From positions 62,001 to 126,000 of the forward strand of contig JAHHHL010000005.1 of assembly GCA_019359375.1 (NCBI GenBank): 64,000 nucleotides of DNA. The letters run 5' to 3'. Shown in pieces: positions 1,085 through 2,915 of this stretch. Position numbers and translations under genes: made by a program. The notes under the pieces were generated by a model. It was not told where the DNA came from. It was given only the letters and a program-made list of their open reading frames with translations, and made no database searches. The first letter of the stretch is position 1. The number at the start of each line of letters is the position of its first letter. This DNA is from Lyngbya sp. HA4199-MV5. Lineage in GTDB: Bacteria; Cyanobacteriota; Cyanobacteriia; Leptolyngbyales; Leptolyngbyaceae.

Positions 1085-1990
1085 CTACTCCTCCTCTCTC
1101 GGACCGATCGCCAGTTGCATGACAAACGGTTCACCGCCAACCTGGTGATACCGATCAGCCCATTGCCGAATGACGTGATCCAGTTCGCTTAATGCCTCAT
1201 CGACGCGATCGACGGGGATATCCAATTCTTCAAGAGCGCGCATAGCTTTCGATTGACGCTTTGCCCAAGCATTCATAATGCGGAAGTACCGGGCTGTGTC
1301 TTCCACCATCAAAAAAGTGCGTTCTTCTTCATCAGCGGGGGAATAGGAGGCTCGTGTCAGCGCATAGAAGGGCATGCCCCAGGGAGAGTCAAGTCGAGTG
1401 ACGGTACCAGAGTAGAGCAGCCGCCGCTTGATGTGTTCTGCCAACGCCTCACTGAGCGGCATTTGCTGATCTTCGGGCACATACTCTTGAGAGCGAGCGT
1501 GGAGAAACTCAATGAGATCTAGAAACTGGAAGGAGTTAATGAGCTGGGCATCGGGCAACTGGTCGGACAGTAGCTTTTGCTCAATTTGGCGTTTTTCTTC
1601 AGACGTAAGGCTGGTGCCAGCAATGCGCGATCGCCCTGGTTGCCAGGGATATTGTTCTAACCAAACGTAAGGGAATTGGATCAAATAGCGCGGTTCCTGC
1701 GAACCCAGCATTTTGAGCAGTTTGCCTTCTGTGAGCGCTTGCCGCACCTCTTCGACAATCGCCTTCACCCGTTTGGGTTCGATATGGTGCAAATGACCCG
1801 TCATCCGGAGGTTTTGATCTTGCTCCAGATAGGTCATGTAAATCGCACATTTGGCTGCTGTCGCTGCCGCATCTAAAAACGCTCCGTGCCGATGCCCACT
1901 GGTTCGCATGGCACTAAATGCCAAATAGAGCAAGATCTGATCCATGGCACTAGGACCGAGACGTTTGATCAGATCGAGGTCTTTAATCAT
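1085..1990 (-). CDS. hetR: HetR, master regulator of heterocyst/cell differentiation
   Basis: HetR is a DNA-binding transcriptional activator whose dimer is antagonised by RGSGR-type peptides. The protein is almost co-linear with Anabaena HetR: the stretch from [13 protein letters not shown] through [17 protein letters not shown] and [13 protein letters not shown] is nearly unchanged. With the ATG at 1990 it has 301 residues and starts like other HetRs; a TTG three codons upstream is less likely. Cys48 is conserved. Ser153 aligns with Anabaena Ser152 after a one-residue insertion. The C-terminal acidic EELD patch (about 254-257) that lies in the peptide-binding hood region of known structures is kept. 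A patX-like gene lies about 710 bp upstream on the same strand. HetR also occurs in filamentous species without heterocysts, so heterocyst formation is not implied. Confidence 0.97.
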
Positions 1991-2702
1991 GTCAACCAAA
2001 CTAACCCACTGGAACCACTACGGAAACACTGATGATGCTACGAGCATCGTCTTGTTACATCTTGACGACTGCGATCGCCGTAACTGACACAGCAATGGCG
2101 CGTAAACTAGACTAGCCTGTCACTGCAATCGGTAAACGGCTCATTTCAATTCCTTAGTTGTTTATTATCCTAGTATTCCCCAACAATTCAAGCTTTAAAC
2201 TGAGAATCAACGTTACTAGACTCCACGCTTGATAGATCTTTCCGCTCTGAACGCTGGGCGATGCAGGCAAAAAATTCTTCCGTAGAAGTGCAGCTCACTT
2301 TGTAACAGATTACTCCAGGAAGGTCGTAACGTCATAAACAGAAAGCGCTTCCATTCACTCATACGTCAGCTCACGGCTAAATGTTGTCTCGTAGTGTTGT
2401 CTCATAGAGACCTCTGCACAATGTACATGGTAAGGAAGCAATATGAACGAGTTAAAAACAGGTCAATATCAACTCACGCTTCAGCATGCCGCCAATGTAT
2501 GTTGAGAGCAACGATTTTGATCACACATCTGCTTGATCACACATTTGATTACACATTGGGTGCGATCGCGCCACAGAACTGTTCAAACCATGAGGCAGTG
2601 AAACAGGCAAGGAGCTAGCGTTCTAGCATGGTCAACCGATAACAGCATCCTGCGGACAGGGCGTAAGAGTCTACACGCTGGATGGTATAACCTGGCAGGC
2701 AG
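1991..2702. other. Long non-coding region upstream of hetR
   Basis: About 710 bp between patX and hetR, with no convincing gene. It holds a perfect 13-bp palindrome GTCTCATAGAGAC (2399-2411), preceded by a direct repeat of GTTGTCTC, and a three-fold imperfect repeat of the type TTGATCACACAT (about 2515-2560). A 74-codon open frame on the plus strand (2394-2618) has no recognisable features. HetR genes are usually controlled by long leaders with several start sites, so regulatory content is plausible but not shown. Confidence 0.5.
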
Positions 2703-2915
2703 CTACGCCCCAAGCAGCGTCAATTCCCGGAAGAGTTGGCGACGACCACTGCCCCGGTGAAACGTTTGCACAGTTCCGTCCGCTAACTGAGTGAGTGGTG
2801 CGGATTGTTCCAGGGAACGTAGCGCCTGATTAGCGCTCGCCTTGGCATCACGTAAATCCGAAGCTAGAAGCAGTAGCAGCAAGCCTGGTAACAATGCGGT
2901 TGGATGAAAGCCCAT
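2703..2915 (-). CDS. patX: PatX-like RGSGR peptide precursor
   Basis: A 70-residue protein with the PatX plan. The N-terminus is hydrophobic and export-like: positions 6-19 include a run of six leucines, with no strongly charged n-region, followed by a charged stretch. The middle is polar and variable. Near the C-terminus is HRGSGR, with RGSGR at residues 54-58 (bases 2742-2756), followed by a 12-residue tail. RGSGR is the pentapeptide core shared by PatS and PatX that binds the HetR hood domain and blocks DNA binding. The gene lies upstream of hetR on the same strand, the arrangement reported for patX in many filamentous cyanobacteria. The ATG start is clear. Because of its small size and leucine repetition it is easily missed by gene callers. 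Processing and export are inferred. Confidence 0.9.
   Translation of the reverse strand: MGFHPTALLPGLLLLLLASDLRDAKASANQALRSLEQSAPLTQLADGTVQTFHRGSGRRQLFRELTLLGA

Follow-up and report, generated by a model that had tools for sequence, protein, structure and literature searches.

A patX gene upstream of hetR in a Stenomitos-like cyanobacterium and the conserved element that precedes it

Described PatX systems and the locus at hand

PatX was reportedly described by Elhai and Khudyakov in 2018, and their abstract is said to report, for every patX gene, a DIF1 motif no more than 69 nt upstream, with an NtcA site before it in heterocyst formers. HetN, another RGSGR protein, is larger and dehydrogenase-like, with the pentapeptide internal. 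According to the excerpted text of PMC12756182, Nostoc PCC 7120 exports PatX and cuts it with PatP, binding to HetR abolishes DNA binding, and the PatX6 peptide HRGTGR binds HetR with a KD of 88 nM.

We analysed a stretch of 64,000 nucleotides from Lyngbya sp. HA4199-MV5 (the window), in which a short gene of this type lies upstream of hetR on the same strand. The gene, at 2703-2915 (-), has 70 codons plus a stop and translates to the 70-aa protein MGFHPTALLPGLLLLLLASDLRDAKASANQALRSLEQSAPLTQLADGTVQTFHRGSGRRQLFRELTLLGA. It encodes a hydrophobic leader with a run of six leucines, the hexapeptide HRGSGR at 2742-2759 (-) (RGSGR at 2742-2756), presumed to be the HetR ligand once processed, and a 12-residue tail after RGSGR, all as read in the preliminary description. 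The leader ends in an A-x-A site resembling those cut by signal peptidase (AKA, residues 24-26, 2838-2846 (-)), where the precursor may be cleaved; the site sits 26 residues ahead of HRGSGR and is conserved in 5/6 aligned PatX proteins. The best 11-residue Kyte-Doolittle mean of the leader, a measure of hydrophobicity only, is 2.75, and 47 of 53 PatX sequences, the window's included, pass a threshold of our own choosing (mean of at least 1.6 over 11 residues). Both the leucine run and the tail had been flagged as worth comparing. The leucine run proved not to be special, as so many leaders pass and LLLVLL stands in L001, the nearest relative, whose record is titled Stenomitos rutilans and whose HetR is 96% identical; the tail has the commonest non-zero length (8/52 loci), although 9/52 are tail-less and lengths range from 0 to 26. 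Immediately before the last pentapeptide, 41 of the 52 loci have H, which matches the HRG(S/T)GR ligand; the remainder have Y (5), N (4) or E (2).

The gene shares with the PatX of Elhai and Khudyakov a short product, a hydrophobic N-terminus, RGSGR near the C-terminus, a hetR neighbour and a conserved element close upstream; the one difference noticed is that this element reads TCCTGAT here and TCCGGA as given for DIF1 in open papers. We rejected PatS, which has the same pentapeptide but is described as a very short peptide of 17 aa with a C-terminal ERGSGR, whereas the protein here has 70 aa, a leader, an H preceding the motif and a further 12 residues behind it, and we rejected HetN, since the window protein has only 70 aa and matches nothing in Pfam. 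With PatX of Nostoc/Anabaena PCC 7120 the gene shares the leader, the H before the pentapeptide and presumed Sec export (PMC7761841 and PMC12756182, both in excerpt), whereas that strain has RGTGR, heterocysts, and PatS and HetN besides PatX, and here the pentapeptide is RGSGR and the host has no nifH above cut-off. Leptolyngbya sp. BL0902 is likewise non-heterocystous with hetR directly downstream of patX, but in that strain the two genes appear co-transcribed (PMC11298460, in the portion available), whereas 712 bp separate them here. The gene is patX, of a kind already known, and the locus is a further example of the described pair. The protein has no match in Pfam or NCBIfam, which fits the earlier remark that so short a gene is easily left unannotated. 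That genomes titled Leptolyngbya and Stenomitos have it next to hetR suggests that searches relying on domains can overlook patX, though order names may also differ between the two classifications.

Several PatX proteins of other loci depart from this layout. Five pentapeptide copies in 10-residue repeats occur in one (L071, 4387-4632), four in another, one of them RGTGR (L057, 4229-4576), and two in each of L032 (4321-4569) and L073 (950-1363); these look like multi-copy pheromone precursors. Six loci (L014, L015, L016, L059, L063 and L074) have forms of 26-38 aa upstream of hetR that terminate exactly at RGSGR, a PatS-like layout, yet are preceded by the patX element; four of the six fall under the leader threshold.

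The downstream gene, at 1085-1990 (-), is an intact hetR, the master regulator. Its product matches Pfam Peptidase_S48 and HetR_C (the Hood domain, 120.8 bits versus 27) and the NCBIfam equivalog PRK13245.1 (562 bits versus a cut-off of 489). We prefer ATG 1990 as its start over TTG 1999, the start called by the ORF tool, because the ATG is conserved in 5/5 aligned relatives and the TTG in 2/5. Measured from the patX stop to ATG 1990, the spacer (1991-2702, (-)) is the 712 bp given above, in agreement with the roughly 710 bp and intact hetR reported earlier. On its sense strand it holds no TCCGGA, TCCTGA, GGGN5CCC or GTAN8TAC. Across the spacers of 53 loci there was no enrichment of TCCGGA (2, shuffles 4.6), GGGN5CCC (3, shuffles 2.8) or GTAN8TAC (8, shuffles 7.2), and TCCTGA was somewhat enriched (13 vs 5.8 in shuffles). 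The sequence GTGTGATC occurs twice in the window's spacer, 16 bp apart at 2519-2542. The five nearest relatives have it in their spacers too (6/53 loci overall including the window, shuffles 0.42). On the other side of patX, the divergent neighbour at 3170-4690 encodes a circularly permuted ATP-grasp protein; sequence from the 5' part of this gene can likewise be aligned in front of patX in the five nearest relatives.

The host genome (6.9 Mb, 95 contigs, 100% complete) has one hetR match at E 0.001. No nifH scored above cut-off and the best nifH-like gene is a bchL/chlL equivalog, so the host is probably a non-diazotrophic, filamentous relative of Stenomitos. Genome-wide, HRG(S/T)GR matched at 5 sites (12 in the reversed control). 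Of these 5, the window's alone falls in a credible frame, and a second signal gene of this pattern was rejected.

Selection on the frame and its tie to hetR

A frame of 70 codons could be a random ORF that happens to contain RGSGR, and two observations lean that way: the protein is unmatched in both family databases, and the window has 6 matches to the degenerate DNA pattern for RG(S/T)GR where 2.06 would be expected. That count is reached or exceeded in 4/100 shuffles, and the DNA pattern alone is not notable. The frame itself behaves otherwise. Between the window and the nearest relative, the 70 patX codons show 5 differences at first positions, 4 at second and 28 at third (dN 0.062, dS 0.81; for hetR, dN 0.020 and dS 0.79). 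dN was below dS in all 14 of 15 pairs with a computable dS, the ratios of distant pairs being rough because of high dS. All five nearest relatives retain the frame at 68-71 codons. These relatives are apparently the genomes G001-G004 and G006 of the genus set described below, because the translated proteins are identical, so the two count as one data set seen twice. The patX frame is under purifying selection.

The frame also recurs beside hetR. We collected 77 hetR loci and analysed the 72 with at least 1.5 kb upstream, leaving out five with less. In 52/72 loci the 1.5 kb ahead of hetR contain a short RG(S/T)GR frame in the sense direction, compared with 0/72 antisense, 0/62 downstream, and a mean of 0.175 (maximum 1) in 40 shuffles. 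Within the genus, hetR and patX occur together in the same 6/7 genomes, and G005 (600 contigs, 94% complete) has neither. A frame broken in close relatives that keep hetR, named in the preliminary description as evidence against it, was looked for, and all six hetR-bearing genomes of the genus keep the frame intact. In a whole-genome search of 30 relatives, a set that overlaps the 72 loci, hetR is present in 24, and 21 of the 24 carry the frame no farther than 1.5 kb in front of it. The exceptions are G021, G028 and G007; in G007 a contig end truncates the region. Of three additional HetR-like copies in the relatives' genomes, L153 has a frame, and L154 and L155 have none. The copy L154 (G006:C42:12984-13667), in the closest genome, is a second HetR relative, 44% identical, within a 632-residue open frame.

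Beyond the genus, the frame near hetR is missing in 20/72 loci, and no convincing variant pentapeptide was seen within 1.5 kb of hetR in these 20; a stop-ended pentapeptide pattern was dropped as too unspecific. Eight of the 20 were followed. In L044 and L073 patX lies farther upstream of hetR, and in the genomes of L042 and L045 it lies outside the 5 kb upstream of hetR, where it was located by a pattern for the upstream element. The same pattern recovered the positive control L046 and found no patX in the genomes of L043, L025, L058 and L020, but it also missed the known L044 gene, so absence from these four cannot be concluded. The element is nevertheless a practical handle, having led to patX in two genomes beyond the 5 kb upstream of hetR.

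The element upstream of patX

TCCTGA is present within 200 nt before patX in 53/53 sequences (the window and 52 others), where shuffles predict 1.9. Taken with purifying selection on the frame and its recurrence upstream of hetR (52/72 versus 0/72 antisense), this conserved element puts the frame beyond chance, and these counts refute the random-ORF reading, to which we give practically no weight. The preliminary identification of a PatX-type gene beside hetR thus holds on frame conservation, synteny, co-occurrence in the genus and a common upstream element.

In the window the element reads TCCTGAT, at 2969-2975 (-), 60 nt before the patX ATG. Strict TCCGGA is missing from the 200 nt upstream of the window's patX, and among the 53 sequences it occurs there once, at 167 nt (1.8 expected). 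Counting from the patX start, defined as the first in-frame ATG downstream of the element, the distance is 57-67 nt in 50/53 sequences and 39-42 nt in the other 3. Downstream of it follow GTAtCAG or GTAACAG and then an AaTAGA block. The window's counterpart of the former, GTAACAGG at 2944-2951 (-), where the consensus of the 53 is GTAtCAG, may serve as a -10 box. Apart from metagenome bins, the 53 records bear names such as Leptolyngbya, Oscillatoria, Phormidium and Moorena, and judging by these titles the loci would mostly come from species without heterocysts. Among the matches listed, no literature mentions TCCTGA(T) together with patX, judged by title, and TCCTGA occurs 0 times in the main text of PMC11298460.

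We make no claim for a regulon, since TCCTGA-N15-19-GTAWCA has 4 sites in the host genome versus 3 for a reversed control. The patX site of this pattern was found in 6/7 genus genomes, and two other sites look common to G001 and G002. The consensus before patX also forms a perfect inverted repeat, TCCGTATCAG...CTGATACGGA, with 8 or 9 of 9 pairs in 18/53 sequences (shuffles 0.6). In the 38 sequences with at least 6/9 pairs, mismatches were G-T in 17 cases, A-C in 19 and others in 29; the arms were picked freely, so some are chance. The near equality of G-T and A-C mismatches favours a DNA dyad and disfavours an RNA hairpin. In many upstream regions, such as those of L033 and L053, the repeat spans the presumed -10 and start region, and it is possibly an operator. 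The window's copy has 6/9 pairs, a level common in shuffles, and the repeat is therefore not claimed for the window.

patX genes lying away from hetR keep their element. This holds for TCCTGAT at L203 and L211 (in the genomes of L045 and L042) and for TCCGGAT at L186, L189 and L194, so element and gene seem to travel as a unit. At L022, an element like those of L033, L034 and L036 stands 714 nt upstream of hetR with no patX frame behind it, a probable relic of patX loss with hetR kept.

The contrast is with family f32, which we take to be heterocyst-forming because its HetR proteins are 84-95% identical to Anabaena HetR. At all 12 f32 loci the 1.5 kb in front of hetR is free of RG(S/T)GR frames, whereas such a frame is present at 15/17 loci of other families in the same analysis. 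An HRG(S/T)GR search of 4 f32 genomes found patX in 3 and none in G141. Each of the three genes has TCCGGAT 63 nt before its ATG, so the element at the same position differs by one base, TCCTGAT versus TCCGGAT, although three f32 genes are few. An NtcA-like GTAN8TAC just upstream of the element is present in 2/3 f32 patX genes and in 3/53 other loci (shuffles 0.85). Elhai and Khudyakov may already report the one-base contrast. We tentatively suggest, as a possibility well short of even, that patX of filamentous species without heterocysts keeps an ancestral TCCTGAT promoter class, with the DIF1 box TCCGGAT in its place in heterocyst-forming relatives. A single T-to-G change at the fourth base would in that case mark, and may have helped cause, the recruitment of an old filament-signalling gene into heterocyst control.

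HetR as the presumed target and the output of the pair

Starting from what was obtained directly (the frame and its purifying selection, the link with hetR, and conservation of the element before patX and of R223 in HetR), the locus can be read as a patX-hetR pair in which PatX inhibits HetR, with promoter activity, export, processing, binding and inhibition modelled on the Nostoc work. A promoter with its TCCTGAT some 60 nt ahead of the ATG would drive patX, the hydrophobic leader would export the 70-aa precursor, and cleavage would probably follow AKA at residue 26. An extracytosolic peptidase would then trim the precursor to a peptide bearing HRGSGR, which would bind and inhibit HetR. The leader, the A-x-A site and the hexapeptide are the parts of the window protein that match Nostoc. 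On the HetR side, the window protein aligns to the solved HetR (4hri) across nearly its whole length and has R at the position aligned to Anabaena R223 (numbering counted by hand), a residue that, per the excerpted PMC7476756, is needed for peptide binding, R223W ending the interaction with PatS in Anabaena. We regard inhibition of HetR by PatX as quite probable. Our confidence goes no higher because, in the sections of PMC11298460 available, the effects of patX on expression in non-heterocystous Leptolyngbya BL0902 looked basically hetR-independent, which counts against HetR inhibition. Also on that side are the 20/72 loci without the frame near hetR, and L022, where hetR is kept but patX is represented by a relic of its element.

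The same strain is the main reason to consider that a genuine patX acts chiefly on a target other than HetR, its position next to hetR being historical or due to co-transcription. In the BL0902 transcriptomes, for those gene groups on which PatX and HetR act in opposite directions, the double mutant is similar to the patX mutant and unlike the hetR mutant (PMC11298460, in part); the patX genes that keep their own element away from hetR point the same way. Against this, the sole genus genome missing either gene lacks both, RGSGR is the constant core of the peptide, and HetR retains R223; such a target seems to us improbable. Somewhat less so, though still doubtful, is that PatX brakes HetR inside or on the producing cell with no diffusing pattern signal. 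Under nitrogen depletion in Anabaena, patX is reported to be impaired in cell-cell signalling and to act cell-autonomously (PMC7761841, in excerpt), while the hydrophobic leader in 47/53 sequences and the export requirement in Nostoc (PMC12756182, likewise in excerpt) favour an extracellular step. Inhibition of HetR by an exported PatX peptide remains our preferred reading. The minimal activator-inhibitor pair of the preliminary description is still a proposal, and BL0902, as far as the excerpts of PMC11298460 go, speaks against simple HetR inhibition.

With no nifH above cut-off in the host, heterocysts are an unlikely output and the pair probably serves something else. Following proposals in the literature, we consider a part in controlling filament fragmentation (necridia), or some other multicellular behaviour, the likeliest role. 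What patX and hetR do in species without heterocysts has been termed a mystery (PMC11298460, in its available part), to which this locus contributes a clean case from a Stenomitos-like lineage.
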